A stretch of 46,223 nucleotides of DNA. Source: a virus. The stretch spans positions 1-46,223 of the IMG/VR virus record IMGVR_UViG_3300017613_000353. The stretch is one strand, 5' to 3'. Position numbers and translations under genes: made by a program. Shown piece by piece: positions 2,436-45,834 of this stretch; the stretch's first letter is position 1; each line of letters opens with the position of its first letter. Under the pieces are notes generated by a model. The model was given only the letters and a program-made list of their open reading frames with translations, searched no databases and was not told the DNA's origin.

Positions 2436-3425
2436 ATGGCCTTAGACCTAACCCAGTTACAGGCAGCTACTGAAAACCTGTGGCTCAATACTGATCCTAT
2501 CGACATTAAATTCACGGACAATGCACTTCTGTGGATGCTGATGAAGCAGTCCAAAGCTGTTGATTTCGATGACTACTTCGTAAAGAACAATGAAACTGTC
2601 GATGGTGGGAAGAAGATCAAGGTACCGTTGGAATACGATGAGTCCAACAGCGGTTCCTATGGTCAAACGACTGTTATCCCACAGTCCAAAGTTGACATCA
2701 TCAACGCTGCCCTGTTTCCGTGGGGTGGGGTGTACGCAAGCAACAGCTTGGGTCTTGACGATCAGGTACAGAACTCCGGTGCGGAAGCTATCGTTGATCT
2801 GGCCTACCGATACACCCAGAATGTTTTGAAGACCGCATGGAAAAAGATGGGCCTTGCAGTCTTCGATCGTACTTCCGGTGATGACTACGCCATCAAGGCG
2901 CTTGAGGATGACCTGTTCAATACTGTCACTTCTACTGCTTACGGTGGAATTGCTGAAGATGACATGGCTCTCTGGGCACCCAACGTGGACACGAGTAACC
3001 CGGCGATTAACTTTGCTGCGTTACAGTTGTTCTGGCGTACCCCGGCAATCGGCCAGCATCGTTCAAAGCGCCCGAACCTTGGTATCACTACCGAAGTTCT
3101 CAAAGACGCTTACGAGAATGGCTTGCAGTCTCAGCAACGGTTCTCCGACCAGAAGATGGTCGAGGCTGGTTTCGACAACGTGCTGCACAAAGGCGCTCCT
3201 GTCGTAGCTGATGACAACGTCAACTCTGGTGATTTCTTTGCGCTGAACACCAACTTCTTGAAATTGAAGGCCCACAAGGATTACAATTTCACCGCTCCTA
3301 AATGGATTGCGAAAGAGGAGTCTGGACAACCGGACAACATCTATTGCAATACTCGCTGGGTCGGTCAGTTGGTGTGTACTCATCGTAAAGCTCACCTAAG
3401 AGCTACTGGTGTGACTGCCAGTTAG
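2436..3425 (+). CDS. major capsid protein (predicted)
   Basis: This 329-residue protein follows the scaffold gene by 13 bases with a strong ribosome-binding site (AAAGGAGAATAAATC), and a terminator-like hairpin follows. The N-terminal helical part, a glycine-rich basic stretch (GGKKIKVPLEYDES) and a following aromatic beta segment resemble the N-arm and E-loop region of HK97-fold capsid proteins used by several podovirus groups. It would build the icosahedral shell. I see no protease gene beside it, so cleavage of an N-terminal propeptide is not suggested. Fold not verified. Confidence 0.8.
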   Translation: MALDLTQLQAATENLWLNTDPIDIKFTDNALLWMLMKQSKAVDFDDYFVKNNETVDGGKKIKVPLEYDESNSGSYGQTTVIPQSKVDIINAALFPWGGVYASNSLGLDDQVQNSGAEAIVDLAYRYTQNVLKTAWKKMGLAVFDRTSGDDYAIKALEDDLFNTVTSTAYGGIAEDDMALWAPNVDTSNPAINFAALQLFWRTPAIGQHRSKRPNLGITTEVLKDAYENGLQSQQRFSDQKMVEAGFDNVLHKGAPVVADDNVNSGDFFALNTNFLKLKAHKDYNFTAPKWIAKEESGQPDNIYCNTRWVGQLVCTHRKAHLRATGVTAS

Positions 3426-25445: not shown

Positions 25446-26011
25446 TAGTTAAGCCGGGAGATATATTCTTCTGTCAGTCTTCCTCATTACTGGGGAAGAC
25501 TATTCAATTTCTGAGCCGGGGCAAATACAACCATACGGGAATATTTGTTTTCCAGAATTCGCTAAGATGGGGACGATCTATCGAAGCGCTGTGGAACGGA
25601 GTAGTAAGCCATTCTATTTGGGACTACTACTCCGGTCGGTCAGTAAAGATTGAAATCTGGAGACCATTAAACATCTCAGACCGGGACAGGGTCAAGATCG
25701 CATTCGAGGCTTACAAGGATATCGGTGTAGGATACGGATGGTTTGACCTTACAGCCCAGTTTATGGATGCCCTAATTCCTTTCAATCCGTACATCTTCCG
25801 GCGGCTTGGGAAGTATGGGAAGGAAAGCGTGTGTTCTAATTTTGTGGCAAAGTGGTATCGTTCTGTTGGTCTGTCTTTTGGCCTTGAGCTTAATCAGGTA
25901 CAGCCAGATGATCTCCAGCGATTCTGTGCGGCAACTGAGGGACGGTACTATGAGAAGGTGAGAAAACTTAGCTATTTAATTGATGGAGACTCTGATGCCA
26001 ACGCTTGTTAA
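25442..26011 (+). CDS. permuted NlpC/P60-like (YiiX/YaeF-type) hydrolase
   Basis: The 189-residue protein has the permuted papain-like order: KPGDIFFCQS near the start, a catalytic His in YNHTGIFV (His31), and the catalytic Cys within SVCSNFV (Cys131), preceded by a segment with YGWFDL. Members of this fold cleave peptidoglycan peptides or act on lipids. No signal peptide is present. ATG overlaps the stop of the exported protein; its own end overlaps the giant gene by 17 bases. A peptidase or amidase role is inferred. Confidence 0.7.
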   Translation: MIVKPGDIFFCQSSSLLGKTIQFLSRGKYNHTGIFVFQNSLRWGRSIEALWNGVVSHSIWDYYSGRSVKIEIWRPLNISDRDRVKIAFEAYKDIGVGYGWFDLTAQFMDALIPFNPYIFRRLGKYGKESVCSNFVAKWYRSVGLSFGLELNQVQPDDLQRFCAATEGRYYEKVRKLSYLIDGDSDANAC

Positions 26012-29000
26012 ATGTATAGGTGTTTTAACTGGTAAGGAAAAAGCTGAATGCCTTACCAACGCCAAGAAATTTATGGGGGAAGGTTTCTCTGCTGAAGAAG
26101 AGGTCACGGGAGAAACAAAGGTAAAACTGGGCAAATTTCTTGATCAAGAAATCAAGGGTTTTCAGGAAAGTTCAGAGAAGCTATCTCCTAAAAAGGACAC
26201 TCCGAAAGACAAGATAATTGCCAAGCTCATTGGAAAGCCGAAGCTTCAAATAGAGGGTACCCCTGACCAGCCCTATACGAGAAAGACCGTTCAGCAAGCG
26301 TTTCCGGGGTCGAATGTTACACAACGATCAGATGGGTCAATGGTTGTCAGGCTGCCGAATGGAACAACCATCAACGTCTGGGAAGGAAACATACAGGTAA
26401 CGGACTCTGAGGGTAATAAGAGGGCTGTCCGTGGGGCATGGATCGATCGATATCGGACGATGTGGCTAACCTCTACAGCCGGAACTGATACTGTATTCCA
26501 TGAATCATTCCATGCAGCTTGGGCAATGGCTTTAGATAGAGCCGATAAGGCTGCGCTGATCAAGAAGTATGGCACAGAGGAAGTGGCTGCTAAGGCTTAT
26601 GCCAAATGGAAGGTGAAGAGGCTGGCTCGAAATCCTATCTTCCAAAAAATATTTGACTTCTTTTCCACCATTCGCAAGGCTATGTATCCGGGGTCTCCCG
26701 GTGCGGTCTTTGACCGGATCCATTCCGGGGAAGTCTTCAAGAGACACTCTGCCCTATTATCTGATATCGGCCCTGCTGCTTATGCTCTGGAGCATGATGA
26801 CAAGAAGTGGGAATACGATTACGATAATGTCGAGTTCGGTACCGTTAACAACCGGATAGCGAATGAACTGAATTGGATGGAATTAATGATAGGCAGTTCC
26901 AAACGAGCTATCAGTTTACCGGGGAAAGCGGTAGCAAAGGCAAGCGAAAGAGAAAGCCTGAAAAAGAAGGGTGTTAAGTTCAGGGGCGATCGAAGGATTG
27001 TTAGATCCATCACCGCACATGATCTGGGCAAGGATGTCGATGAGGCCTTACAGTCTGGTCGACTTGCTGAATTGATGGACGAGAAAATCTCTCCAATACA
27101 ATTGGCCGACAAACGTGAACTCAAGGGTAATGAACGGGCACGGTTTATTCGGGAACTGAAAAACCTTCGCAACGATACTGATTATCTTTCCACAAATTCC
27201 AAGACCGGGACTTCATCTAATTTCATCTTAGCGACTTGTCAACCTACCAGCCCATGCAAGCATTGCTACGCAGCCAGAGCCATGTTCAGATGGAGTGCTA
27301 TTCAAAAGGCATGGAAGGATACCATTCGGATATTGACTAACCCAACGGGTTGGGCTGAGAGGGTTTCTGAGGAAGTGAACATCAAGTCAAAGATCGAGAT
27401 GCCTATGGTCAGGATGCTGGGATCTGGAGACCTTACTTTTAAAGAGCAGGTCACAGCGTTCAACCACTTGGCTACCCTGATCGACCGGCCGATCCATGTC
27501 TTCAGTCGGCACCATGACAATCTTGAGAAGCTGAAGTCTCAGCCTAAATCTCCATTCGTTAAGATGGGTTCGATCGATGCACAGCTATACGAGACCTACG
27601 GTCACAAGTTCTTGACAGAGAACTTGAAGAAGCGTGGCATCATCAATGCTTTCCTACATACCGATGCATCTGAATACAAAGCAATGGACAAGCTGTACAA
27701 AGATAAATCGCTGGGGTTAGTGTTATCTGCATCTCATAAAATTCATAAACAATTAGCGAATCATAATTTTGGTCTATCTCAAGGTTCCTGTCCGTGTGAT
27801 GCGGATGAGCGCAGCCTTTACGGATCATGCATAGAATGTGCTTTTTCTGAGTCTGGCTGCTTCATGGCTGTCGCTGATTTGGGCTACGATATCGATGGAA
27901 AAATCTGGAAAGCAAGTGATATGAAAGCTCCAAAGCTTTACTACTTTACGGAGTTTATTGATCGTAAACCCGTGGATCTTATGAGTAAAGCTGAGTATGA
28001 AAAAGCAAAGGGGATGAAGTCTTTACGCAAGGATAAGAAGAGAAGAATGTTCGACTACGAGGGAGCTACCCTTGGCAAGGCTCGTGGATACTTTACTACT
28101 TTCGATCAATTAGTGTACAAGTCTATCAAAAATATGCAGTTGCGAGTTGACACTTATCTGAAAGGTTTCAAGGCTGCTGCATGGAAAAGGTATAAGAAGG
28201 ATCACCCGAATGCTGTTAGAAAGTCTGTTTCCAGAAAGATTAGTGCTATTGCCAAAAAGGATTACAAAAAATGGTTGAAGGGTGGGAAGAAAACTCCCTT
28301 TCCGGGTGAGAAAAAATCTATCAAGCTTTCATCTGTTATCCCTGACGAGTTGGAATCGACTGACCTTGTATACTCAGACGAGATAATTAATGATGATACC
28401 GTTACCATTGATACGGTTGAGAAGGCTGAACTGTATATTGAAAAGCTTAGAGCGATCGGTGCGAAAGCCAAGACTGGTAACTTCATGCTGAAAGGTGGGC
28501 CTATCCAAGATCCTGTCTATGTAAAGGACTGGAAGATATTAAGCAAGGAAGAACAGGCACAGCAAAAGTTAAATGCAAAGATCACAGAACAAAAAATCAA
28601 GTCGGCCGAATCCTCAAGGAACCAGATCCCTGCTTCATTTAAAAGGGTTGACTGGAAGCTGGGCAGTACGAATATCGATATTGGTGGGGGCAAGTATGAC
28701 AAGGCTACCGATTATCTCAAGGGCAAGGGTGTTACGAACCTTGTCTACGACCCCTTCAATCGATCCGAAGAATTTAATTACGAAATTATCCGGCAGCTTT
28801 CCATGGGGCCGGTTGATACTGCGACTGCAGCCAATGTTTTGAATGTTATTTCAGAAAAGGCACATCGAGTCAATGTCGTGCGTCAAGCTGCCAAGGCAAT
28901 CAAGGCTGATGGTGTTGCTTACTTCCAGATCCATGAGGGAGATGCCGATGGTAATGGCAGGGTAACCAAGGTTAAGGACGGGAAAGACATGGTATGGCAG

Positions 29001-32000
29001 AATCATCAGCCTACCAAGTGGTACATCGATGAGGTCAAGGAATACTTCAAGACTGTGAAAGTCGCTAACAAAACCATCACGGCCACTAATCCTATCAAAG
29101 ATAACTCCATGGCAACATGGGAAGTCAATGGGATGCCGCAGTATTCGATTACACAGGTAAAGGAAGACCCTGTCATTCTGCCGCCTGATCTGGCCGAATT
29201 GGAAGAGCCGTTTGATCTCTACTCTGGAACTGATCTTGTAGAAGCAATAAAATATGCTCAAGCATTAGAGTTGAAGCTGAGAGCATATGACCTTGCAACT
29301 CCAAAAGATGACTTCGTTGAATACTACAGGGATGAAACTGAAGAGGAGTTCCACGGTGTCGCAGATAACTCCATTGAATTGATTAATGGAATTTATGACC
29401 ATTGGCTTGAGAGACACAGGGGTGGCGAAGGTTGGGCAAACCAGATGTTCGATATCGATGGAGAGCAGGGTATATACAATAAACCAAGTGAAGCATTTAC
29501 AAATGGCGTAGTCGGCAAGATGGATACCGGAAGCTGGTCGTTCGATGTGGAACATGAAATCCTTCAAGCAGTTGAGGCAGAACATGGGATGCCAGAGATG
29601 CCACGAACCGTAGAAGGTGTACTCAAAGAACTTGATGAAGAGTACGGGGAAGACATTGATGAGTTGAAACAGCAGCTTGAAGATGGAGAGATCGAGGACT
29701 ACAATCTCGATGAGATGCTGCACGATCGTAGGGTTGAAGATTATCAATATGCTGATAAAATGATATATGGTGGGGAAAGCGGTGCAGAGTTGGGCGAAAT
29801 ATTGGATCAACAAGGATGGGACTCTCCTATCGGAGATACCATTCTTGAAGAATTGCAACTTAGCGGATATGAGGCATGGAGAGCAAATTGGGGATCAGTA
29901 TTAAAACAGACCGAAGATCGTATAGAAGCACAGCGCAAAAAGTTGGACGAGGCTGTGACACCGGCAGAGAAGCTGTCTGCTATTACGTTTGCCCTAAATG
30001 AAGAACACGTTTATGGCACGATGTCTGAGCATATGGACATAAGTGATACAGAGCTTGATGAGCTTTCCAATATGGGCGAGAATATCAAGGACTTCTCCAT
30101 GTTACTGCGGCGTAACTACCGGCCCGGAGCAATTCAATACAGCCTTGCCAACCCTTGGGATAAAGAAGGTTGGGTTGTCCGTACTGAGGGTGTAAGCGAC
30201 AAGTCTTTCAGACAGGTTGATGAAACAATCGCTGTAACAAGGGAAAATTTTGTTTACAGGGGGATGACTGAGGCTGAATTTAAAAATACTGTGGGAAAAA
30301 ACAAGGGGGTTGAATCTCGCAAGGACTTTTCTTTCGGAAAAGAAGGAACAAGTTTTGGAGAGGATTTTCAGACTGCTGAAAGTTATGTCAATTATGGCAG
30401 GGATGATCCACGGGAAACAGGGAAGCCCACATATCTCGTAGAAGTAGAAAAGGGTGAGAATTTAAAAAGGAATCGTCAGGGATATTATGAGGCAGAAGAC
30501 GCAATCCCCTCTTCCCAAATTAGCAGGGTGTGGAAAATGGAAGCAAGCGGCAGGGATGTCGTTGCTACACCAATACAGCCTCAGTACGGTCTCGCTTCGC
30601 AAGAGGTGATCCGCAGCTTGAAGACCGCAGACTTGCTGAAACATGATCGCCTAAAGAGTGCCAAAATCCATAAGACTCCAGACAACAACCTGCGAGTCAC
30701 CTTTCCTAATGGTAGGGGTTTTACGATCTATCAGGTAAACCACATTACCAAGGACAAGGCTGCCTTTGAAGCTGGCTATGGTGAAGCAAGTATGGAAACT
30801 GGCGAAGCGATTGCTGGTGAATACTGGCACGAGAAAGAGTCTTTGAAGCTCTCTCGCTATGCCGGGGTTTATACGATCGACCATGAGTTGATGCATTTTC
30901 TTGAACGGTCAGGTATGCTGAACCGTGCTGAGATCGCCGCTATTAACCGGGAGCTTGACAAGCAAGGCAAGGATAGGACAGAGGAAGAACGAGCCAAGTG
31001 GGTAGAGCGTGAGATGGCTAAGAGGGACATGGAGAGGCTCGAACCTAAGTCCATGGCAGAACGTGTGCTGAAAAGTATTAAGGACTTTATCGATACCATG
31101 CTGAACGCTTTTGGCAAAGCTACGCCTGAGAATGTTCTGCGACAGATGGAGTCTGGGAAAATCTTCGAGCGCAAAGCTACCGACAAGCTGTCCCATGAAA
31201 TTCAATACTCTAAATTGGCAGAGGCTTGGTACTCTCAGATGGAGCAGTTTCTTGGTGGTGACAAAGGGCTGCCGGGGAAAAGTACGCCTCAAGCGATGCT
31301 GCAAGTGATTGACAAGTTCGCCACTCCCCCGGTTGAAATCACGGACGAGATCAGCAGGTTGGACAAAATCCATCAGTCTCATCCCAACGCCTTTACTAAA
31401 GCTGAGTTAAAGAAAGCCCGGAAAAAGGCTGGCAAATATAAAGGTCATTTCAAAAGAGAGGAACTTGACTGGTCTGGGCTAAGGGATGAACTGGAAGAAA
31501 AAGCAAGAGTTAAAAAATGGCGATCAACAAAAGCTGGCAATCAATGGATTGTGCAGTTAGATGGTTCAAGCGATGATCTGACTGGTGGAAAAAGGTATTA
31601 TATGTTTGATGAGGAGTTTGGGATGCAAGAAAACAAAACTCCTTCTTTTCAAACATTAGAGGCAGCCATGCATTTTGCAGCGGAAGTCTCTGCTGAACGC
31701 AAGGGTGAGAAGGATGCACCAAGGCCTGATAGTGCTTATGTTGATTTTCAACAATTGCCAACCGACAAAATAACCAAGAAAGAAATCCTTGAATATCTGT
31801 CTGACAATATAATGTTCGTTGAAGAGATCATTAAATATCCTTCTGGTCATCCGAAGGCGAAGGCTGGAGAAACATTGGATGAAGGAGAAGATAGTGAATA
31901 TGATATTATATGGCACGATACAGTAGAAGTGATGGGTAGGCCCATGACGTGGGGTGATACTGAAGCAGAGGGTGTGATCGATTGGCAAAGGGATCTACCT

Positions 32001-35000
32001 GCTCTATCTTGGTTTGCTGATTCCGATCCCGATCAGCTAATAGCAGATAATCCTTCCAAGCACTTTACAGAAAAAGATGTTGAGCAGCTAAGATTTGCTC
32101 AAAAGCTGGGCGAGAAGAGAGGTCGTGATAAGATCGAGCGTGAGTTCGGTGAGTTCGCTCAACCTTCATGGCGGACAATTCTTCAGGAAACACAGAAAAT
32201 ACTTAGCAAAGGGGCAGTCTATCATGCTTGGCTGCCGTCAGGAACATGGGAAATAAAACCATCCGGTGAGATGTTTCCAAACGGTAGACAACCCGTGGAA
32301 CTGTTCCATAATGGTACTGTAGTGGAAGAGTATGACTCAGCAGAGATAGCCAAGGTTGAATCACAGGAATTAACAGGAGAACCCTTTGTGCGACCCGTAC
32401 CAGAAGAAGTAAAAGACACGAGAGTCAAGCACAACATGACATCGAGAAGGCTCGAAGGTAAAAGCAAGGGGTATCGTGAGATGGTGTTTCGGATACCTGC
32501 TTTGACTGAAAAGTGGGAGTTAGGATTTGTTGAGCCAGTCCATTATAACGAAACCAACATTGTTGTCTTCGTTAGATTCGATGAACGACAGCTACTGGAT
32601 GGAAGCAGAGTTCTTTATATCGATGAGATTCAAAGCGATCTGCATCAGAGGGGCAGAAAGAAGGGATATAAAGGAGTGCCGATGCAGAAAGGCTTTAAGG
32701 CCACCACAATGCTTCCCGGTGGAATTGAGCTTTCCGGCATTGGAAAGACTGAGGAAAAAGCTATCGAGTCTGCGAACCTACAGTTACGAGCTGGGGGTAA
32801 AGATCCCATTGATGCCGGGAAATATACTGTCGTACCCAACATGGTACGCAATCATCAAGACCATCTTTCTGAAAGAGAATCTGTACCCAATGCCCCCCAC
32901 AAAAAAGAGTGGCCGTTACTGGCAATGAAACGCATGGTGCGGTGGGCAGCAGAGAATGGATATGACAAATTGGCATGGAGTTCGGCTAAAATCCAGAATG
33001 AACGATGGGGCTTAGATAAGCACATCGATCAATTATACTGGGAAAGAACCAAGACTACAAGCAAGGGTCGGGGAGAACATTACAGATATACTATTGTTGG
33101 TTCAAAACACGATAGGCAAATCGTAGAAAAAGATAATCTAACCGAAGATGATCTTGAAGCGCATGTCGGAAAGGAACTTACTGAAAAGATTCTTGCTGGG
33201 GTAGGCTCACAACCGGAAGGTGGCCCTGACATGGGTTCATTGGACAACCTCGATCTGAAGGTCAAAGGCTTGGGAATGATCGGCTTCTATGATCGGATGC
33301 TGCCTAAAATGATGAAGAGCTTCTTCGGCAAGAAGGCATGGGGCAAGGCAGAAATAGAAGTTGTAACACTTAACGAGAGGCCACCAGTAAATAAGAAAAA
33401 ATACAAGCGTGATACCGAAGTGACGATAGCAATTTTGGATGATGACGGGGCACCCAGAATGGTAACAATTCCGGCGTATTCAACAAGTCTCCCCGGTATT
33501 GTTGTCACTCGATTTAAGGATCCACTCATTCAGGACGGAGCAGTATCTCTTACTATTACTCATCAGCCAAGTGGGCTGGCTATAGTTCCTCATGGTTTTA
33601 ATAAGACCATTGCAGAGGCTCAAGAAATGGTCGACAGAATTGGTGAAAGGACAGATGTAGACTGGACTGTGTCTGAAGGGGAGTTAGTTGCAATGATAAC
33701 GGCAAAAACTCTCGTGGGTGAGCTGCTTAGAAATACCGTAAATGAAATTAAAATGGCAAAGACTAAAGGGAAAAAGTATGCACCGGAAGATGTCTGGGCT
33801 ATCTCTATCAACAAGACAATGCGTGACAAGGCCAAGTCAGAGGGTATGCCTCAGTATGCTACTGCTCAAGCGTCTGCTGCTGTGAGAGGGCTGACCACAA
33901 AAATTACCAACCCTATCTCTGAATCTGAATTCTTCAAACAGAAGATGCATGACTGGGTGGACAAAAACCTTGCCATCAAAGAGATCCAAGACTTTATCGG
34001 TGGGGTCAAGGAAAGACTCAATGTCTTCATGCAAGAGACTCAGCGGCCAAAGGTTACGGCATATCGAACAGAGAAGTTCTATGACGAGATGGTTACCCCT
34101 ATAATCGAGGGTGCTGCCAAGGCCAAGCTGAAGCTATCAGAGATCGAGGAGCTTGCCCATGCACTCCATGCTGAAGAAGCCAATAAAGCATTGCGTGAGG
34201 CCGCTGCTCTGGAACAGGTTAATGATATTATCGACATGCCCAAGACGGTTGGTGTTACACCGGCAATGAAAAATGGGCTGCGTGATGAACTTGAGAATGT
34301 CGATAGGATGGGGACAGGCCCAGCCGGGAATCTCAGGGTGCTGGAAAACTTCCTTGTTAAACATGGGGATCTCGTTCCCGAACTGCGAGATTACTGGACG
34401 GTCTTCAGGGATGAAGCGGCTGGTATGACCGATAAGGAAGCCAAGCAGATAATTAATAAATGGCAAGGTAATGCCAAAAAAGCCCAGATATACGACTTAG
34501 TCGGCAAGATAAGTGACATTAACGATCGGAAGTTGGGACTGCTTTTTATGAGTGGTCAGATCAACGAGGAAGAGTTCAAGGCGTATTCAGGCAAGTATAA
34601 AAATTACGTTCCTCTTTATAGAGAAGGATTCGAGGGGGAACCTATTTCCAGCGCTGGCAGAGGCCTCTCTGCTCCGGGCAAGCCTGTCAAGGCTCGTGGT
34701 GGATCTCTGCGGAAAGTTACGGACATCTTAGCCAATACAATAAAAAATTATGAGATGGCAATCATCCGTTCTGAGAAAGCCCGATCTGCTGAAATGCTGC
34801 TGGGCATGGTCAGGGAGAATCCAAAGCCGGGTTTCTGGAAAGTAACCAAAAGCAAAAAAGCTCCGTACTTCGATAGCATGGGCAACCTGCGGCACTATCC
34901 CACCATGAAGGTAGGACTAAACGAAATGAATGTAAGGGTTAATGGAGAGAACTTCGTTATCCAAGTCGATCGAAATAACAAGACCGCTTTGAGAATGATA

Positions 35001-36596
35001 GAAACTCTCAGGGGAGAAGGTGTGCAGTCTGGGCCTTTGATCAATGCATTATCCAAGGTCAACCGCTATTTGTCTGCAATCAATACTATGTACGCACCTG
35101 AGTTTATTCTATCGAACTTTTTCCGTGATATTCAAACAGGCAGTATCAACATAAAAGACTCAGGCTTGAATACAACAGCCATGCTGAAGAAGGTCGGCCA
35201 GTCAGTCAGAACCATTGCAGGGATAGAATCCGGTAAAGGTAATGTCTCTCAAGCAGAGCAAGACCTTTATCGCCGCTACCGTCAGGCTGGTGGAAAGATT
35301 TCTTGGATGGACGTACACCAGACAGCCGAATCGGTTGCAAAGAAAATCGAGGCTGAATACCAGTATGCAGCCGGTAACCGGCCAGCAAGAAATACTCTGA
35401 GAAAATGGAACAAGTTCTGGCAGAGTATGAATACATCGATTGAAAATGGTGCGAGGTTTGCTGCGTTCAAACTTGCGATTGAAGCTGGAAAAAGCGATAA
35501 AGAAGCTGCAGTTATTGCTTCTGACCTGACAGTCGACTTTACAAGGAAGGGTGCAAAGGGACAAGTCCTCAATTCGCTCTACCTCTTTGCCAATGCTGGC
35601 ATACAGGGCAGCTTCCGAATGTTCCGGGCGCTGAAAAACAAACGGGTCAGACATGCTGCCGGTGGAATCGTTATGTTGGGCTTTACTGTCGGTGCTTGGA
35701 ATGCATTAAACGGAGATGATGATGACATCGAGGATTATTTGAAGGAACGCAACATAGTTATCCGCATTCCCGATTCAGACAAGATGATCAAAATCCCATT
35801 GCCTTGGGGTTTCAATGTCTTCTTCAATATGGGTGACGAGGCGGCCAAGGCTGTGTTCAAAGAGAACTACGATCCTTTGAATGGTGCTGCGAGAATGGTG
35901 TCCGTAATGGGCAATGCATTTAACCCATTACAATCAGGCACCGTGCTTCAGACCTTGCTACCCACAATAGCAGATCCTTTTGCTATGGTAGGAGAAAACA
36001 AAAATTGGTTCGGCGGCTCATTAATGCCAGAGAGAAATATATTCGCAAAGGTTCCAAAACCAGACTCGCAGAGGTTTTTCCGGTCAGCAAGCTCCCCATC
36101 AAAATGGGTTGCTGCGTCTTTGAACTCCATGACCGGGGGTGATGAGATCGAGAGAGGTGGAATTGATGTCAGCCCTGAGACCCTCGATATGGTAATTGAT
36201 CAAGTTGGTGGGTCTGCTTTCCGGTTCATTTCTGACTTGACATTGATGCCGGGACGTATTAAGAGAGACGAGGTTAAAGTTCATACCATCCCATTCCTTC
36301 GCAGGGTGGCTGCGGAGAAGTCTGAATATGTGGATAGAAAAAAATATTTTAAGGCGAGAGAGGAAATCAATATTGCAAAAGAACAGCTTAAATTGTATCC
36401 TGAAATGCGCCGGGAGAAAGCACACATCTTGCGGTTGGATTCATCCCTGAGACAATCTGAGAAGATGCTGAGGGTACTGAGAAAGCGCCTGAAGGGTACG
36501 CAAGACAGGGAAGAGGAACGTGCGATTTTAGACCGAATGAATGTAGTCTACCAGAATTTTATGATACGCTACGACCGTGTAGCAGAGGGGGAATAA
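25995..36596 (+). CDS. giant polyvalent protein, 3533 aa
   Basis: The open frame reaches back to TTG 25980, but ATG 25995 has GGAG at correct spacing. Domains in order: zincin-like HESFH (about 169-173); a Cys-cluster domain (C415, C421, C424 and a second cluster about 598-628) resembling phage Gp88-type proteins; a methyltransferase-like fold with IDIGGG (about 893); an ADP-ribosyltransferase-like region (YRGM, about 1419-1526); and a second zincin HELMH (about 1630-1634). Then comes a conserved polyvalent domain with EIQSD..RKKGY (about 2209), AENGYDKLAW (about 2310) and GFYDRMLP (about 2430). An LPD38-like C-terminal region follows (about 3146-3290), then a coiled-coil end. Such proteins are thought to travel with the DNA and blunt host defences. 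Confidence 0.85.
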   Translation: MPTLVKCIGVLTGKEKAECLTNAKKFMGEGFSAEEEVTGETKVKLGKFLDQEIKGFQESSEKLSPKKDTPKDKIIAKLIGKPKLQIEGTPDQPYTRKTVQQAFPGSNVTQRSDGSMVVRLPNGTTINVWEGNIQVTDSEGNKRAVRGAWIDRYRTMWLTSTAGTDTVFHESFHAAWAMALDRADKAALIKKYGTEEVAAKAYAKWKVKRLARNPIFQKIFDFFSTIRKAMYPGSPGAVFDRIHSGEVFKRHSALLSDIGPAAYALEHDDKKWEYDYDNVEFGTVNNRIANELNWMELMIGSSKRAISLPGKAVAKASERESLKKKGVKFRGDRRIVRSITAHDLGKDVDEALQSGRLAELMDEKISPIQLADKRELKGNERARFIRELKNLRNDTDYLSTNSKTGTSSNFILATCQPTSPCKHCYAARAMFRWSAIQKAWKDTIRILTNPTGWAERVSEEVNIKSKIEMPMVRMLGSGDLTFKEQVTAFNHLATLIDRPIHVFSRHHDNLEKLKSQPKSPFVKMGSIDAQLYETYGHKFLTENLKKRGIINAFLHTDASEYKAMDKLYKDKSLGLVLSASHKIHKQLANHNFGLSQGSCPCDADERSLYGSCIECAFSESGCFMAVADLGYDIDGKIWKASDMKAPKLYYFTEFIDRKPVDLMSKAEYEKAKGMKSLRKDKKRRMFDYEGATLGKARGYFTTFDQLVYKSIKNMQLRVDTYLKGFKAAAWKRYKKDHPNAVRKSVSRKISAIAKKDYKKWLKGGKKTPFPGEKKSIKLSSVIPDELESTDLVYSDEIINDDTVTIDTVEKAELYIEKLRAIGAKAKTGNFMLKGGPIQDPVYVKDWKILSKEEQAQQKLNAKITEQKIKSAESSRNQIPASFKRVDWKLGSTNIDIGGGKYDKATDYLKGKGVTNLVYDPFNRSEEFNYEIIRQLSMGPVDTATAANVLNVISEKAHRVNVVRQAAKAIKADGVAYFQIHEGDADGNGRVTKVKDGKDMVWQNHQPTKWYIDEVKEYFKTVKVANKTITATNPIKDNSMATWEVNGMPQYSITQVKEDPVILPPDLAELEEPFDLYSGTDLVEAIKYAQALELKLRAYDLATPKDDFVEYYRDETEEEFHGVADNSIELINGIYDHWLERHRGGEGWANQMFDIDGEQGIYNKPSEAFTNGVVGKMDTGSWSFDVEHEILQAVEAEHGMPEMPRTVEGVLKELDEEYGEDIDELKQQLEDGEIEDYNLDEMLHDRRVEDYQYADKMIYGGESGAELGEILDQQGWDSPIGDTILEELQLSGYEAWRANWGSVLKQTEDRIEAQRKKLDEAVTPAEKLSAITFALNEEHVYGTMSEHMDISDTELDELSNMGENIKDFSMLLRRNYRPGAIQYSLANPWDKEGWVVRTEGVSDKSFRQVDETIAVTRENFVYRGMTEAEFKNTVGKNKGVESRKDFSFGKEGTSFGEDFQTAESYVNYGRDDPRETGKPTYLVEVEKGENLKRNRQGYYEAEDAIPSSQISRVWKMEASGRDVVATPIQPQYGLASQEVIRSLKTADLLKHDRLKSAKIHKTPDNNLRVTFPNGRGFTIYQVNHITKDKAAFEAGYGEASMETGEAIAGEYWHEKESLKLSRYAGVYTIDHELMHFLERSGMLNRAEIAAINRELDKQGKDRTEEERAKWVEREMAKRDMERLEPKSMAERVLKSIKDFIDTMLNAFGKATPENVLRQMESGKIFERKATDKLSHEIQYSKLAEAWYSQMEQFLGGDKGLPGKSTPQAMLQVIDKFATPPVEITDEISRLDKIHQSHPNAFTKAELKKARKKAGKYKGHFKREELDWSGLRDELEEKARVKKWRSTKAGNQWIVQLDGSSDDLTGGKRYYMFDEEFGMQENKTPSFQTLEAAMHFAAEVSAERKGEKDAPRPDSAYVDFQQLPTDKITKKEILEYLSDNIMFVEEIIKYPSGHPKAKAGETLDEGEDSEYDIIWHDTVEVMGRPMTWGDTEAEGVIDWQRDLPALSWFADSDPDQLIADNPSKHFTEKDVEQLRFAQKLGEKRGRDKIEREFGEFAQPSWRTILQETQKILSKGAVYHAWLPSGTWEIKPSGEMFPNGRQPVELFHNGTVVEEYDSAEIAKVESQELTGEPFVRPVPEEVKDTRVKHNMTSRRLEGKSKGYREMVFRIPALTEKWELGFVEPVHYNETNIVVFVRFDERQLLDGSRVLYIDEIQSDLHQRGRKKGYKGVPMQKGFKATTMLPGGIELSGIGKTEEKAIESANLQLRAGGKDPIDAGKYTVVPNMVRNHQDHLSERESVPNAPHKKEWPLLAMKRMVRWAAENGYDKLAWSSAKIQNERWGLDKHIDQLYWERTKTTSKGRGEHYRYTIVGSKHDRQIVEKDNLTEDDLEAHVGKELTEKILAGVGSQPEGGPDMGSLDNLDLKVKGLGMIGFYDRMLPKMMKSFFGKKAWGKAEIEVVTLNERPPVNKKKYKRDTEVTIAILDDDGAPRMVTIPAYSTSLPGIVVTRFKDPLIQDGAVSLTITHQPSGLAIVPHGFNKTIAEAQEMVDRIGERTDVDWTVSEGELVAMITAKTLVGELLRNTVNEIKMAKTKGKKYAPEDVWAISINKTMRDKAKSEGMPQYATAQASAAVRGLTTKITNPISESEFFKQKMHDWVDKNLAIKEIQDFIGGVKERLNVFMQETQRPKVTAYRTEKFYDEMVTPIIEGAAKAKLKLSEIEELAHALHAEEANKALREAAALEQVNDIIDMPKTVGVTPAMKNGLRDELENVDRMGTGPAGNLRVLENFLVKHGDLVPELRDYWTVFRDEAAGMTDKEAKQIINKWQGNAKKAQIYDLVGKISDINDRKLGLLFMSGQINEEEFKAYSGKYKNYVPLYREGFEGEPISSAGRGLSAPGKPVKARGGSLRKVTDILANTIKNYEMAIIRSEKARSAEMLLGMVRENPKPGFWKVTKSKKAPYFDSMGNLRHYPTMKVGLNEMNVRVNGENFVIQVDRNNKTALRMIETLRGEGVQSGPLINALSKVNRYLSAINTMYAPEFILSNFFRDIQTGSINIKDSGLNTTAMLKKVGQSVRTIAGIESGKGNVSQAEQDLYRRYRQAGGKISWMDVHQTAESVAKKIEAEYQYAAGNRPARNTLRKWNKFWQSMNTSIENGARFAAFKLAIEAGKSDKEAAVIASDLTVDFTRKGAKGQVLNSLYLFANAGIQGSFRMFRALKNKRVRHAAGGIVMLGFTVGAWNALNGDDDDIEDYLKERNIVIRIPDSDKMIKIPLPWGFNVFFNMGDEAAKAVFKENYDPLNGAARMVSVMGNAFNPLQSGTVLQTLLPTIADPFAMVGENKNWFGGSLMPERNIFAKVPKPDSQRFFRSASSPSKWVAASLNSMTGGDEIERGGIDVSPETLDMVIDQVGGSAFRFISDLTLMPGRIKRDEVKVHTIPFLRRVAAEKSEYVDRKKYFKAREEINIAKEQLKLYPEMRREKAHILRLDSSLRQSEKMLRVLRKRLKGTQDREEERAILDRMNVVYQNFMIRYDRVAEGE

Positions 36597-39970: not shown

Positions 39971-40208
39971 GTTTCTTAAAGAACAAATGAAGAAGAACAA
40001 GAGTGTGGCCGTTGACTACCTGAAAAATGTAGCCCTTCCAAAATGGGAAGCTGAGTATCGCCGGGGCAAGAAACTTGCCTTGCTACAGGAAACCCTGCCT
40101 CGTTGCCACAAGGAGGGCGCTTATTGGGACGATATTGATCGGATCGAAAAGGCAACTGGAGAAGCACTCCAAAACAGCAAATGTAAACAGGGGGAACAAT
40201 GGCTCTAA
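39963..40208 (+). CDS. hypothetical protein, 81 aa
   Basis: ATG at 39963 overlaps the end of the HNH gene. The product is polar, Lys-rich and helical (DEFLKEQMKKNKSVAVDYLKN), with a central helix and a Gln/Cys-ending tail. Its end overlaps the recombinase gene by ten bases. Possibly a DNA-binding helper; no family recognised. Confidence 0.6.
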   Translation: MDEFLKEQMKKNKSVAVDYLKNVALPKWEAEYRRGKKLALLQETLPRCHKEGAYWDDIDRIEKATGEALQNSKCKQGEQWL

Positions 40209-41146
40209 AGATTTTTCGAGAAACTGAGGTTTGGACGGTGGATCAATTGGTGATGGTACTTTATAGCGTTCCCGGTCTGGGGAAAACTACTCTTGGCTTT
40301 AGCAGCGAGAAACCGCTACTGTTGGATTTTGACGGGGGTGCATACCGTGCAAATCTGCGAAGTGATGTGGTACGGGTCAAGACATGGGAAGAGGTCAAGA
40401 GCATTACGCCCGATGACCTTGACCCGTATGAAACGATTGTCGTGGATACTGCCGGTCGGGCATTGGATTATCTGACCGCATCCATCATCAAAAACGATTA
40501 CAAAATGGGTAGCGGTGGATCCTTGACTATCCGTGGCTATGGTCAGCTAAAGACGCAGTTCACCGGCTGGCTCAAAGCTCTCAACATTTTGGGCAAGGAC
40601 GTTCTGCTGCTGGCTCATTCGACTGAAGATAAAAACGGTGACGATTTGATCGAGCGATTGGACATCGTTGGTGGGTCGAAAAATGAGATTTACAAAAGCG
40701 CCGATGCAATGGGGAGACTCTCTTTGAAGAGCGGCAAGAGAATCCTGAATTTCTCTCCTACGGATGTGTCCTTCGGAAAAAATCCGGGTAACCTCGCTCC
40801 CCTGCCTGTCCCTGAGATCAATTCTACCGGCACGTTCCTTGCTGGGGTGTTCAGAGATATCAAGGAACACTTGAACGAGATGACAGAGGTACAGAGGGGG
40901 GAACAGGCACAGCTTGAGGGCTGGGTGCAAGTGATAGACGGTCTTGTTACTCCTATGGACTTTACGTCTTTTGTTAAAGACATGCAAACATCCGATAACC
41001 TGTCTGAGAACTTGAAGGTTATGATTAAGGCTGCCTTCGGATCCGCTGTCAAAGAAAGTGGATTCGAGTGGGACAAGAATGCCGGATGCTACAAGGACAA
41101 GGTTGAAATCGTAGAGGATAAATCCAACGAGGGGAGTGCCGAATGA
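40199..41146 (+). CDS. Sak4-like RecA-fold recombinase/ATPase
   Basis: The 315-residue protein has Walker A SVPGLGKT (residues 23-30) and a Walker B-like strand ETIVVDTAGRALDYL (about 80-94), followed by RGYGQLKTQF and VLLLAHSTED. This fits the AAA_24/Sak4 group of phage single-strand annealing or pairing proteins. It would help strand annealing with SSB and the exonuclease encoded downstream. The start codon is supported by GGGGGAACA. Confidence 0.8.
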   Translation: MALKIFRETEVWTVDQLVMVLYSVPGLGKTTLGFSSEKPLLLDFDGGAYRANLRSDVVRVKTWEEVKSITPDDLDPYETIVVDTAGRALDYLTASIIKNDYKMGSGGSLTIRGYGQLKTQFTGWLKALNILGKDVLLLAHSTEDKNGDDLIERLDIVGGSKNEIYKSADAMGRLSLKSGKRILNFSPTDVSFGKNPGNLAPLPVPEINSTGTFLAGVFRDIKEHLNEMTEVQRGEQAQLEGWVQVIDGLVTPMDFTSFVKDMQTSDNLSENLKVMIKAAFGSAVKESGFEWDKNAGCYKDKVEIVEDKSNEGSAE

Positions 41147-41748
41147 AAACGTGCCGAATATCAGCCAGCGATCTCGATCAGATGGTGTGGTATTACCGCA
41201 TGTTGAATATGAGTACCGATGATCTTTGTCAGCGGCTGCTGCATAAAGCAGAGCCAAATGAAAAAATGAGAGTCGGTACTCTCTGGCATGAAGTTCTGGA
41301 AAATTCAACTGGTGATATCGATGAGATCGATCACGGTGGCTATCACTTCAAAGTTTTGGCCGATGCTCATATTACCTTGCCCAAGCTCAAGGAAGACAAG
41401 TCGACCATAGATTATCAGATCGGAGATGTGCTGGTAACTCTCGTGGGCAAAGTAGATGCCATTGATTGCTTTAAAATCATTGACCACAAGGCAACCTTTA
41501 AGGCACCCAACCTTGATACTTACATGGAGTCGTACCAATGGAAAGCTTACCTCGAAATTTTCAAGCACAATGTCTTCGAGTACATAGCTTATCAATGTAA
41601 GATCAAAGGCAAAACGGTGTCTATCGTCAATGTCGACAAGCTAAAAATGTACAGGTATCCGGGCATGAAGATGGATCTGTTTTGTGGCATTATTGACCTG
41701 CTGGACTTTTTTAAAGCGTACCTGCCTGAAAAAATAGAGGAGAAATAA
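41143..41748 (+). CDS. PD-(D/E)XK exonuclease (RecB/Cas4-like)
   Basis: The catalytic pattern of the RecB-type nuclease is visible: GTLWHEVLE (His49 and Glu50), Asp105 in KVDAID, Asp114-x-Lys116 in IIDHKA, and the QxxxY motif (Gln132, Tyr136). It would resect double-strand ends to give single strands for the Sak4-like partner. The start overlaps the recombinase stop (ATGA). Size (201) fits phage members of this family. Confidence 0.8.
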   Translation: MKTCRISASDLDQMVWYYRMLNMSTDDLCQRLLHKAEPNEKMRVGTLWHEVLENSTGDIDEIDHGGYHFKVLADAHITLPKLKEDKSTIDYQIGDVLVTLVGKVDAIDCFKIIDHKATFKAPNLDTYMESYQWKAYLEIFKHNVFEYIAYQCKIKGKTVSIVNVDKLKMYRYPGMKMDLFCGIIDLLDFFKAYLPEKIEEK

Positions 41749-41750
41749 TT

Positions 41751-42035
41751 ATGAATTATCTCGCTACGGCACGAGAAAAGTTTGCGAACTTCCATTTTGA
41801 GAACCCCAACGTGTTCAGGCGGCTCAGAGAGCGCTGCTGGGATTTAAAAGCGGTCGGACACAAAACCTATAGGATTGATCTCCTGATAGGTGAATTGGTC
41901 GTTAAATACGATGAGAGGACGTCTGACAGGAAATTTGGGATCAACAACAATCACAGACCGTACTATGCTCGTTTGCTGAACAAGCAGCCGGGACTGGAAG
42001 GCTTTTTTAAAACAAGGGCAATGACGGGGGAATAA
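41751..42035 (+). CDS. conserved phage protein, 94 aa
   Basis: The protein shows the pattern NPNVFRRLRERCWDLK, then HKTYRIDLLIGELVVKYD, and NNNHRPYYARLLNKQPGLEGFFKTR. I recognise it as a widespread small phage protein, usually found near replication and recombination genes, of unknown role. ATG follows GGAGAAATAATT. The stop overlaps the next start (TAATG). Confidence 0.7.
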   Translation: MNYLATAREKFANFHFENPNVFRRLRERCWDLKAVGHKTYRIDLLIGELVVKYDERTSDRKFGINNNHRPYYARLLNKQPGLEGFFKTRAMTGE

Positions 42036-42880
42036 TGGAATATTTTGAGATTAAAAACTGGAAAAAGTTCCAGATCATCAGACACGACAGACCGTATCGA
42101 TGGATCAAATTGCATCTGACGCTTCTGCAGAATTATGAATTTGATTTGTTGACCGAAGTCCAACAGGCCCACCTGATGAAAATCTGGCTTTTGGCTGGTG
42201 GATTGGCCGGTAAAATTCCCAACGATCCGACATGGGTCGGCCGGAAAATCGGGGCAAAATCGAGGGTCGACCTGAACACGATGGCTGAGGTCGGTTTTTT
42301 GATCCCAATTGACGTTCAGGTGGAAAAAGATAAAAGATGGATATCATTGGAAAAAGAGACCGCCGCACCCCTGCTCGCCAACGTTGCCGCACCCCTGCTC
42401 GCCAACGTGGCGAGCAAGGGGGTCGACACAGAGAAGAGAAGAGAAGAGAAGAGGAGAGTAGAGAAGAGAAGAGAAGATACCCCCTTCTTGTCGGGGACGG
42501 CTGAAAAATCTCCAGAAATTCCATATGAGCAAATCGTGATTGATTTGAATGAAAAAACGGGTAAAAATTTTAACCCTAATGCAAACGATACTCGAAAGCT
42601 GATCAAGGCACGATGGAACGAGGGATTCACTCTTGAAAATTTTATCGCTGTACATGATCTGAAAGTTCAGGAATGGGGAAGCGATCCGAAGATGAAACGA
42701 TATCTTAGGCCAACAACCCTGTATAGCGGCAAATTTGATCGTTACCTACAGGAATCAGGGGGCATTGACCATGACAAGCTTAAAGAGCTTAAAAAGAGTT
42801 TTGCCGACACCGATTACGGGGAAACAGAACTCCCAGAGTGGGCAAAAGACGATGAAGGCAACGACTCCAACCAAGCATGA
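42035..42880 (+). CDS. replisome organizer / replication initiation protein
   Basis: The N-terminal part (about residues 1-110) is a winged-helix-like DNA-binding region (QQAHLMKIWLLAGGLAGKIP). A low-complexity linker follows. The C-terminal part (about 167-255) with IPYEQIVIDLNEKTGKNF, LIKARWNEGFTLENF and KYLRPTTLYSGKFDRYL is the conserved phage replisome domain (Phg_2220_C type). It probably binds the origin and recruits the DnaC-like loader whose gene overlaps it. The linker DNA carries tandem and palindromic repeats. Confidence 0.8.
   Translation: MEYFEIKNWKKFQIIRHDRPYRWIKLHLTLLQNYEFDLLTEVQQAHLMKIWLLAGGLAGKIPNDPTWVGRKIGAKSRVDLNTMAEVGFLIPIDVQVEKDKRWISLEKETAAPLLANVAAPLLANVASKGVDTEKRREEKRRVEKRREDTPFLSGTAEKSPEIPYEQIVIDLNEKTGKNFNPNANDTRKLIKARWNEGFTLENFIAVHDLKVQEWGSDPKMKRYLRPTTLYSGKFDRYLQESGGIDHDKLKELKKSFADTDYGETELPEWAKDDEGNDSNQA
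42362..42408 (+). repeat. two 23-bp tandem units plus a perfect palindrome in the initiator gene
   Basis: Units at 42362-42384 and 42386-42408 are identical over 23 bases and repeat every 24. The second overlaps the palindrome GCTCGCCAACGTGGCGAGC (42397-42415), which can fold to an 8-bp stem with a 3-base loop. In protein it gives a duplicated AAPLLANV. Iterons inside the initiator gene recall the lambda O-gene origin. Confidence 0.7.
42431..42477 (+). repeat. 47-base polypurine tract
   Basis: All bases from 42431 to 42477 are A or G except a T at 42459, mainly as repeats of GAGAA. It encodes the charged linker EKRREEKRRVEKRRED of the replisome organizer. It could melt or form triplex/slipped structure, or may just be a fast-drifting linker. 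Confidence 0.75.
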
Positions 42881-43661
42881 CGTTAATCTTCTTCGGCAAG
42901 CCGACCCAGAAAATCTGGGGAGAAAATTGATTGACTGCAAGAAGCGAGGGCACGGTAATTACACAGCCACAGAGATGGGGGTCGTGCTTGGCAGAACGGT
43001 CTGGACGCAATGCCCGGAATGCGAGAAAGAGGCTGAGAAAAAGAAGGAAGCGGATCAGGCTGCAAAAAGGGAAGAGGATCTAATGAAGAGATTCTCAAGG
43101 GCTGGCATTCCGAAAAGATTTATCGGATCGTCTCTGGATGAATACGAGACAGGCAACCGGGAACAAAAGCTTGCCCTGAAAGTTTGCCAGCAATATGTTG
43201 ACAAGCTGGATGAAATTTATCTCAGGGGAACATCGTTAATCTTCTGCGGCAAGCCCGGAACCGGCAAAACACATCTGGCCTGTGCGATACTGATCGAGGC
43301 GATTAAACGAGGTTTCACGGCAAAATATTCCTCAGTCTACGATTTGGTATCGGATTACAAACGGACGTTTGGTACAGCCTCTGAGGAAACGGAGAGCAGC
43401 ATCCTGACTCGTTACTGTGATCCGGGTTTGCTCATATTGGATGAAGTGGGGGTTCAGTTCGGAACATCTGCTGAATTGGTAATTATCTTCAGGATCCTTA
43501 ACCAGCGCTACAACGCAGTTAGGCCCACGATCCTGATTACAAATCATTCGGAAAAGGATTTGGAGACTTTCATTGGTGAGCAAGTGGTAGACAGGCTCCG
43601 TGATAACAACGGGGCATTGGTCAAATTCATCTGGAATAGCTACCGAAAGGGGGGAAGATAA
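42852..43661 (+). CDS. DnaC-like helicase loader ATPase
   Basis: I choose ATG 42852; the frame is open further upstream, but that overlaps the initiator more deeply. The 269-residue product has a CPEC pair near residue 54, a basic helical part, Walker A GKPGTGKTH and Walker B LLILDEVG, followed by sensor-type ITNHS and an arginine-containing end (VVDRLRDN). This matches DnaC/DnaI family loaders, which place DnaB-type helicase on DNA. No helicase gene lies in this window, so it may load the host helicase. Confidence 0.85.
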   Translation: MKATTPTKHDVNLLRQADPENLGRKLIDCKKRGHGNYTATEMGVVLGRTVWTQCPECEKEAEKKKEADQAAKREEDLMKRFSRAGIPKRFIGSSLDEYETGNREQKLALKVCQQYVDKLDEIYLRGTSLIFCGKPGTGKTHLACAILIEAIKRGFTAKYSSVYDLVSDYKRTFGTASEETESSILTRYCDPGLLILDEVGVQFGTSAELVIIFRILNQRYNAVRPTILITNHSEKDLETFIGEQVVDRLRDNNGALVKFIWNSYRKGGR

Positions 43662-43828
43662 TGTCCGATGATGCACCGTGTGAGGATAAAAACGAAACCC
43701 GTGAAGTCCTCACGCCACCTTGTGAGGATAATTTACCGGCTGGATTCCGGCACAGGAGATCCGGCCTCTCTTACGTTACCGTGCCGGTCGCTCTCACACC
43801 ACCGTGCAGAGATGACCTGCCATTTTGA
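43661..43828 (+). CDS. 55-aa protein with an SSB-like C-terminal tip
   Basis: ATG at 43661 overlaps the upstream TAA and follows GGGGGGAAGATA. The protein has two copies of LTPPC(E/R)D(N/D)LP (residues 17-26 and 45-54) and ends DDLPF. That ending matches the acidic SSB C-terminal tip (DDIPF) which binds many repair and replication enzymes. The next gene encodes an SSB ending DDIPF. I infer a decoy or competitor for SSB-tail binding partners. Too short to place in a known family. Confidence 0.6.
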   Translation: MSDDAPCEDKNETREVLTPPCEDNLPAGFRHRRSGLSYVTVPVALTPPCRDDLPF

Positions 43829-43843
43829 AAAGGAGAAAATGTA

Positions 43844-44287
43844 ATGGGATCAGTTAACAGAGTTATGCTAATCGGGAATTTGGGGAAAGACCCGGAAGTG
43901 ACTTCCCTGCCTGATGGGAAAGCCGTATGCAACTTCTCGATGGCTACGTCCGAATCGTGGAAGGATAAAAACACCGGGGAAAAGAGGGAATCAACGGAAT
44001 GGCACAATTGCAAGTGCTTCGGAAAGCTGGCCGAAATCTGTGGGGAATACCTGCACAAAGGCAAGCAGGTACGGATCGTGGGCAAGAAAAAAACTCGCAG
44101 CTACGAGAAAGACGGCTACACTTTCTATGTGTGTGACGTTGTATTCCACGAGATGCTGATGCTGGGCAACAAGAGCGATTCTCCCCGGCGAGACGCAGAA
44201 GGTTATGGGCCGCCAGAGCCGCAATCATACCAACATCAGGATGCCGTAAGACCCTTGCCCAGTTACGAAGATGACATCCCGTTTTAG
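43844..44287 (+). CDS. ssb: single-stranded DNA-binding protein
   Basis: The 147-residue protein has the OB-fold pattern VNRVMLIGNLGKDPEV, FSMATSESWKD, TEWHNCKCFGKLAEICGEYLHKG and KQVRIVGKKKTRSY (about residues 1-100). A low-complexity linker follows, and the acidic tip YEDDIPF. It coats single strands in replication and recombination. AAAAGGAGAAAATGTA precedes the start. Gene order with Sak4-like, exonuclease and loader genes is typical of phage recombination modules. Confidence 0.95.
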   Translation: MGSVNRVMLIGNLGKDPEVTSLPDGKAVCNFSMATSESWKDKNTGEKRESTEWHNCKCFGKLAEICGEYLHKGKQVRIVGKKKTRSYEKDGYTFYVCDVVFHEMLMLGNKSDSPRRDAEGYGPPEPQSYQHQDAVRPLPSYEDDIPF

Positions 44288-44813: not shown

Positions 44814-44984
44814 ATGTTTGATCAAAAATCGTTTATTGTTTTGTTGGTTAGTTTGTGCATGCTCTTCATTCTTACAACGCTAAACCTATCATGGGCAGGG
44901 GAGAAGCCACAGCCGTGCCCACCGTACCTTTCAATCTACTGTGAGTCCGGGGTCATAAAAAAAGGAGGGAAAAATGACACTTAA
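44814..44984 (+). CDS. small exported or membrane-anchored Cys protein, 56 aa
   Basis: ATG at 44814 follows TAGGGGATAAC. A hydrophobic N-terminus (FIVLLVSLCMLFILTTLNLSWA, about 7-28) looks like a Sec signal with cleavage after SWA. The short mature part contains PQPCPPYLSIYC and ends in a Lys/Gly tail. Its end overlaps the next gene by 11 bases, so both are expressed together. The two exported Cys-containing proteins may act as a pair. Confidence 0.5.
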   Translation: MFDQKSFIVLLVSLCMLFILTTLNLSWAGEKPQPCPPYLSIYCESGVIKKGGKNDT

Positions 44985-45834
44985 AAAAGTATTTTATTTG
45001 GCAATCGCTGTTTGTTTGTTAGTTTGCAACGCTAATGCGGGCACACCACCATGTCCACCACCACCGCCCTGCGATCCGTGTGATTCGTGTTGCAAAGAGT
45101 GTGAACCGTGCGATCCGTGTGATTCGTGCTGCCCTCCCTGCAAAAAATGTCCGCCCGGAACGGAATGTAGGCCGCCGTGTATCCAAGAAGGCTGCCCACC
45201 GGGTACGGAATGTCGGCCACCTTGCACAACAGAAAAATGTCCTCCCGGCACCGAATGTCGTGGGCCATGCCCTAAATGTCCGCCTACGGTTCCATGCCCA
45301 TCACCTAAAACAGCGGATTGCCCATCGTGTTCAGGTGGCACTTGCTGCCGTGTTCACCTTGATTTCTATGTGGATAACGAATTACGCACCAGCCGTTTAT
45401 GGGGTGAAGTTCCGGGGCTGAACAACCATTTATTGTTTCCCGGTGGCACACAATGTGTGGTAGACGAAGTGCGTTGGCTGATGGGTAACAACGCCAAAGC
45501 CAAATTGTATTGCGCCGGTGCCACAGCGACCAAAACCGAATATGCCTATGCTGAATCGAATGGAACGTGCGATACTCAGATCACGTTCTACGTCAACGAG
45601 AGATTAAATTCGATTCGGCGTTGGTGCGAAGTGCCGAAACTGCATGAAACCATCGAATTACCGGATGGTTCGCTGTGCGGTATAGGCAAGGTGCTTTGGC
45701 ACGTTGATTCTCACGCCAATGTTGAGATTTATTGCACCGTTGGCAAAACCACGGCTGCGGCTTTATCGGTGGACGATGTTTTCACAGATGAAGAATCGGC
45801 TGGATTGTGTTTTATTAACAGCTTTAAATTGTAA
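44974..45834 (+). CDS. exported Cys/Pro-rich repeat protein with duplicated domain, 286 aa
   Basis: A Sec signal (residues 1-22, CNANA before the mature part) is followed by a Cys/Pro region at 24-125 with 26 Cys, two DPCDSCC copies and three CPPGTEC units. Two copies of a 58-residue domain follow (about 125-182 and 199-257), each with FYV(D/N)..L..R..W, E-V-P, PGG/PDG..C and YC. Ribosome-binding site AAAGGAGG. It is probably secreted and disulphide-bonded. I know no phage family like it. Confidence 0.7.
   Translation: MTLKKVFYLAIAVCLLVCNANAGTPPCPPPPPCDPCDSCCKECEPCDPCDSCCPPCKKCPPGTECRPPCIQEGCPPGTECRPPCTTEKCPPGTECRGPCPKCPPTVPCPSPKTADCPSCSGGTCCRVHLDFYVDNELRTSRLWGEVPGLNNHLLFPGGTQCVVDEVRWLMGNNAKAKLYCAGATATKTEYAYAESNGTCDTQITFYVNERLNSIRRWCEVPKLHETIELPDGSLCGIGKVLWHVDSHANVEIYCTVGKTTAAALSVDDVFTDEESAGLCFINSFKL

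Follow-up and report, generated by a model that had tools for sequence, protein, structure and literature searches.

A 55-residue orphan reading frame with an SSB-tip-like C-terminus beside the ssb gene of a virus record

Gene arrangement around the 55-residue reading frame

The virus record IMGVR_UViG_3300017613_000353 (IMG/VR) was analysed as a single stretch of 46,223 bases, referred to here as the window. Its right arm carries, on the plus strand, a replication and recombination run that extends from a Sak4-like gene to ssb and includes a 55-aa ORF placed between the gene of a DnaC-like helicase loader and an OB-fold ssb (Table 1). The dnaC stop codon TAA overlaps the ATG of this ORF (TAATG), with AAAGGGGGGAAG ahead of the ATG, and its translation reads MSDDAPCEDKNETREVLTPPCEDNLPAGFRHRRSGLSYVTVPVALTPPCRDDLPF. 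The product is rich in Pro and Asp, contains three Cys and has a net charge of -4. As the original prediction had stated, it ends in DDLPF and the adjoining SSB, recognised by PF00436 and phrog_44, ends in DDIPF.

Table 1. Features of the replication gene run and of the 55-aa ORF (window positions)
Feature	Position	Strand	Basis
Sak4-like ssDNA annealing recombinase	40199..41146	+	phrog_124 4.8e-38
PD-(D/E)XK-like nuclease	41143..41748	+	PF12705 E 0.0012, below curated cut-off
Replication-initiation-like protein	42035..42880	+	PF09524 3e-25, phrog_428 5e-31
DnaC-like helicase loader	42852..43661	+	phrog_50 2e-72, PF01695 2.7e-19
Putative G-rich Shine-Dalgarno-like stretch (GAAAGGGGGGAAG region), upstream of the 55-aa ORF	43646..43658	+	sequence
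55-aa orphan ORF, ends DDLPF	43661..43828	+	sequence, codon score, repeats
Repeat copy 1 (protein APCEDK), partial	43674..43689	+	15/16 nt identical to copy 2
Repeat copy 2, LTPPCEDNLP	43709..43738	+	translation
Repeat copy 3, LTPPCRDDLP, into C-terminal F	43793..43822	+	translation
SSB-tip-like C-terminus DDLPF	43811..43825	+	translation
Putative Shine-Dalgarno-like AAGGAG of ssb, past the 55-aa stop	43830..43835	+	sequence
Phage SSB (OB-fold), ends SYEDDIPF	43844..44287	+	PF00436 8e-31, phrog_44 4e-48

Elsewhere in the window, positions 2436-3425 encode a capsid-type protein with 47% identity to Methanosarcina virus MetMV, and six further proteins match MetMV at 26-42%. A single ORF of 3538 aa (25980-36596), a giant polyprotein-like gene, has a weak relative in the same virus (28% over 888 aa). 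Because these matches occur despite a DnaC and an SSB of bacterial type, the host is ambiguous between bacterial and archaeal. Downstream of ssb (44814-45834) lie two ORFs with secreted-protein-like starts; the 286-aa product of one of them is rich in Cys and Pro, contains repeats (CPPGTECRPPC) and matched nothing in PHROG or Pfam.

Repeats, coding character and predicted structure

The two LTPPC(E/R)D(N/D)LP repeats that had been described, the second running into the tail, were both recovered, together with a partial copy upstream of them. Copies 2 and 3 lie 84 nt apart, and copy 1 precedes copy 2 by 42 nt. Copies 2 and 3 share 8 of 10 residues while differing at 11 of 30 bases, seven of these differences falling at third positions, and the similarity of 8/10 in the ORF frame compares with 2-3 in the other forward frames. 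This degree of self-similarity was reached in none of 5000 residue shuffles of the 55-aa protein, and 11 random base changes kept at least 8/10 residues identical in none of 20,000 trials, statistics that are somewhat flattered because the repeat was spotted before testing and an out-of-frame 23-nt tandem DNA similarity (43761-43806, 74%) overlaps copy 3. Because of that overlap, the DNA history of the repeats is not a simple one.

The in-frame codon score of the ORF was +0.058. The phage's own genes, read in 165-nt windows, averaged +0.231 for the true frame, -0.50 for frame +1 and -0.79 for frame +2. The ORF thus scores above 98.5% of the +1-frame and 100% of the +2-frame windows, yet ranks in the bottom 4-5% of windows read in the true frame. 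Codon use and protein-level selection both point to an expressed protein, with a score that is low for real genes. From the codon score, the repeats and the Shine-Dalgarno-like stretch upstream, we infer that the ORF is translated. It is very unlikely, in our judgement, that the segment is non-functional as protein, serving instead as a spacer, leader or regulatory RNA, or is read out of frame. Such a role would fit the RNA fold of the region (z -2.05, with 7 of 200 shuffles equally stable) and a competing 58-aa ORF (43668-43844) that shows a TAATG overlap with the ssb start; however, that frame has a codon score of -0.13, the repeats are kept at the protein level in the 55-aa frame only, and no Rfam family was found. 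The weak fold and the competing ORF do not outweigh the coding evidence.

No OB-fold SSB domain was found in the 55-aa protein, which gave no match to Pfam, PHROG or an SSB HMM; on the same grounds, the possibility that it is a remnant of a tandem ssb was rejected. A PDB search returned one meaningless match (angiogenin, E 0.16). The single-sequence AlphaFold2 model (mean pLDDT 58.5) predicts a lone, low-confidence hairpin spanning residues 29-42, with pLDDT about 79 over residues 31-40, the rest being modelled as unstructured, which fits a flexible linker-type protein and proves nothing. The hairpin, together with the several ssDNA-binding families among the phage proteins that end in DDxPF (see below), would suit a small ssDNA-binding or SSB-companion protein whose basic central hairpin (RHRRSG...YVTVPV) is the binding site for ssDNA or SSB and whose acidic tail is autoregulatory, like that of SSB. 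We regard this role as improbable, given a single-sequence model of such low mean pLDDT and the lack of an OB fold or family match.

Relatives of the protein and occurrence of its tail

A degenerate-peptide scan and tblastn detected no homologue of the 55-aa protein in IMG/VR or in the GTDB species genomes (one genome each for about 85,000 prokaryote species), and tblastn in INPHARED gave only three chance matches (E 4-6). Likewise, no homologue was present in 21 records with related capsid genes, several of which are short fragments; among these, ssb occurs in contig G014 only, where the 85-aa ORF upstream of it is unrelated to the 55-aa ORF and the SSB itself ends in LDDLPF. The DNA patterns for PPCxD[DN]xPF-stop and TPPCxD[DN]LP matched 4 and 6 stretches of IMG/VR, respectively, all of them short chance frames.

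We also searched for the tail in front of ssb genes. A DDxPF end within 30 nt of an ATG with an N[KR][VA] start was found in 162 IMG/VR stretches, in none of which SSB came next, and among the SSB-anchored IMG/VR loci no ORF that precedes ssb bears a DDxPF-type tail. The stricter tail-before-ssb pattern returned six cases in the species genomes, all of them tandem ssb-ssb arrangements of Margulisbacteria, which serve as a positive control; these upstream copies with DDxPF ends come from Margulisiibacteriota, Saganbacteria, Marinamargulisbacteria and Termititenax (loci L364-L369). Some codons are set in the tail-before-ssb patterns (GATGAY or GACGAY; in genomes GATGAY only), so that tails encoded by different codons, or having a single acidic residue, escape them.

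The tail is rare outside SSBs. Among 15,984 six-frame ORFs from 162 loci, the loose acidic-[LIVMF]PF end occurs only in SSBs, in a phrog_37570-like family and in the 55-aa ORF. Within a set of 8262 distinct ORFs anchored on dnaC and capsid genes, the strict [DE][DE][LIVM]PF end was carried by three (one SSB and two phrog_37570-like proteins), a rarity to which no exact probability attaches, the pattern having been chosen after the sequence was read. The DDLPF tail is well beyond chance, and coincidence becomes less likely because the ORF sits directly before ssb. The phrog_37570-like proteins are themselves small (94-143 aa), end in NEIPF or DEIPF and lie in loci of DnaC-like genes (L014:5429-5713, L046:5381-5704 and L065:1168-1599; the family also occurs in L051).

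The same rarity, along with the position beside ssb, weighs against a chance resemblance, namely that a translated LTPPCxD[ND]LP-repeat orphan with some other role, such as metal or disulfide contacts through its Cys residues, has a last repeat that happens to end in Phe. This explanation, which we consider unlikely, is favoured by the reach of the repeat N-terminally past the tip, by the DNLP of the internal copy and by the genes at 44814-45834, likewise Cys/Pro-rich with PPC strings. Since internal repeat copies cannot be C-terminal tips, DDLP may belong to the function of the repeat rather than to SSB mimicry. By the same token, the full repeat is not a repeated SSB tip, because the internal unit has no free C-terminal Phe; as the repeat shows, the protein has, at least in part, a use beyond a free C-terminus.

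Tail patterns also yielded 161 phage ORFs ending in DDxPF, which formed 43 clusters; their proportions are rough, as sampling was tied to a following gene with an ATG...N[KR][VA] start. The largest cluster (41 members) consists of OB-fold SSBs. Further ssDNA-binding families that are not of the EcoSSB type are phrog_1192, phrog_378, phrog_9002 and the gp2.5-like phrog_112, and other clusters comprise a clamp (phrog_947), clamp loaders, DnaB-like helicase or primase-helicases, Holliday-junction resolvases, an Erf-like annealing protein and HNH endonucleases. No PHROG function is named for many clusters; those that have one belong mostly to replication or recombination, and therefore the tail marks that apparatus. 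The phrog_947 clamp-like proteins end in DDIPF or DDVPF (L335:2687-3865, with related ORFs in L315, L317 and L354). More short viral ORFs (41-77 aa) ending in DDLPF, DDIPF or DDMPF were noted at L216:413-535, L208:1076-1201, L246:2424-2654, L358:10980-11147 and L363:3070-3210.

A conserved family with a comparable end is phrog_23504, which comprises small Cys4 phage proteins of unnamed function with a C-x2-C...C...PP...GC arrangement. Ten members were aligned, from phages of Paracoccus, Stenotrophomonas, Erwinia, Sphingomonas, Xanthomonas, Shewanella, Vibrio (two), Sulfitobacter and Variovorax; all ten end in IPF and nine of them in [DE]IPF. An SF2 helicase gene immediately precedes the gene of this family, which in several phages is followed by those of the sliding clamp and DNA polymerase. 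Members were located in L370-L379 (for example L374:2917-3123 and L372:2941-3168), L314:11894-12157 and L333, and an unannotated one is present in Paracoccus phage vB_PmaS-R3. As the family demonstrates, an end of this kind can persist through wide divergence in small phage proteins other than SSBs. Because it retains an invariant IPF beside an SF2 helicase, small tip carriers appear to be selected for in phages, and on its sequence features phrog_23504 is a conserved candidate for an SSB-tip-bearing accessory. The 55-aa ORF shares the IPF or LPF end of this family (LPF); it was nevertheless rejected as a member, as it has no CxxC, hmmscan gave no match and its profile score was -1.2 bits.

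SSB-tip docking and comparison with known systems

Partner proteins of SSB bury its terminal Phe in a hydrophobic pocket, while a basic lip holds the carboxyl group of that residue and a basic ridge contacts the Asp residues of the tip (PMC10164576). The features recognised, namely the terminal Phe, its carboxyl group, Pro and Asp (PMC10164576, PMC3594151), are all present in DDLPF. The B. subtilis SSB ends in DDDLPF, Leu being a natural variant of Ile (PMC3594151), and this end, like that of the G014 SSB, bears out the earlier view of DDLPF as a genuine SSB tip. The tip of the 55-aa protein is probably real and points to a role in replication or recombination.

The interpretation we favour, with a confidence somewhat short of even, is that the ORF encodes a translated accessory of the replication module whose tip docks on SSB-tip pockets, most likely those of the phage's own proteins. 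The free C-terminal DDLPF would enter the basic and hydrophobic pockets in which the tip of SSB normally sits. The likeliest partner would be the phage Sak4-type annealase, possibly also the DnaC-type loader or the nuclease, and host SSB partners (ExoI, RecQ, PriA, RecO type) would be further possible targets. By docking, the protein would recruit, compete with or tune SSB-dependent loading, and its Pro/Cys-repeat body would supply a second contact. The Sak4-like gene is a candidate partner by analogy, because the Sak4 of HK620 can bind SSB-coated DNA and be stimulated only if its cognate SSB retains the final six residues, whose loss lowered recombineering 10-fold (PMC5928155). Counted against docking are the lack of a homologue in the searches above, the low codon score and a tip with just two acidic residues after an Arg. 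Strong SSB tips usually carry three or more acidic residues, the E. coli tip being DDDIPF.

The original prediction had named, among other roles, a decoy that blocks host repair factors. Such a host-directed decoy would flood the tip pockets of ExoI, RecQ, PriA and RecO and thereby block host nucleases or repair on phage DNA. Small-molecule mimics of the Pro-Phe end do compete with SSB for ExoI, RecQ and PriA (PMC3594151), and the 55-aa ORF has the tip without an ssDNA-binding domain (Pfam, PHROG). Because isolated tips bind weakly (for RecG, KD 3 µM; PMC10164576), a decoy would have to be abundant or hold a second contact. Moreover, no homologues of the protein were found, and the capsid relative is assigned to an archaeon, Methanosarcina, where SSB-tip partners may not exist. 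We therefore consider a host decoy quite unlikely; the mechanism is not specifically supported, as nothing separates a decoy from an adaptor and the phage Sak4 is an equal or better partner.

In E. coli the SSB tip is essential, and at least a dozen proteins of genome maintenance use it as their docking code. A phage protein with the code alone would act as a natural inhibitor or adaptor of the SSB hub and would offer a lead for drugs against that hub. The tail of the 55-aa ORF is a real observation and better than chance; reading it as an SSB tip is plausible but unproven, and other readings compete with it. That phages make dedicated small tip carriers free of an SSB domain, as the 55-aa orphan and phrog_23504 might be, and with them redirect or block the SSB hub during phage replication, is a wider proposal that we hold tentatively and with some doubt. 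By itself the orphan is weak evidence; combined with phrog_23504 and the tailed replication proteins, it makes the idea of a portable tag testable. This broader pattern, in which phage replication proteins, a conserved small family among them, carry the SSB tip as a movable tail, offers the better lead. It had also been proposed that no phage SSB-tip mimic of this kind was described. This holds in that phrog_23504 is undescribed as a mimic in the literature found, whereas at the sequence level the same family is a precedent.

The closest comparison is with the SSB C-terminus itself: the 55-aa ORF has the same D-D-L-P-F-type end with a free C-terminal Phe and adjoins a true ssb, but, unlike SSB, it has no OB domain, shows only two acidic residues after an Arg and carries a Cys/Pro repeat unit. 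In the Margulisbacteria tandem ssb arrangements, a DDxPF-ending ORF likewise stands immediately before ssb, although there the upstream gene is a full SSB. The gp32-like SSBs, phrog_378, the phrog_947 clamp, phrog_2367, phrog_862 and phrog_24909 have the DDxPF tail in common with the 55-aa ORF; these proteins are larger, and most of the named ones are ssDNA-binding proteins or replication enzymes. Finally, phrog_23504 resembles the 55-aa protein in being small, Cys-containing and non-SSB, with an SSB-tip-like end and an adjoining replication ATPase gene, but differs from it in its CxxC...C...PP...GC arrangement and its relatives in many phages, the two having no detectable homology.
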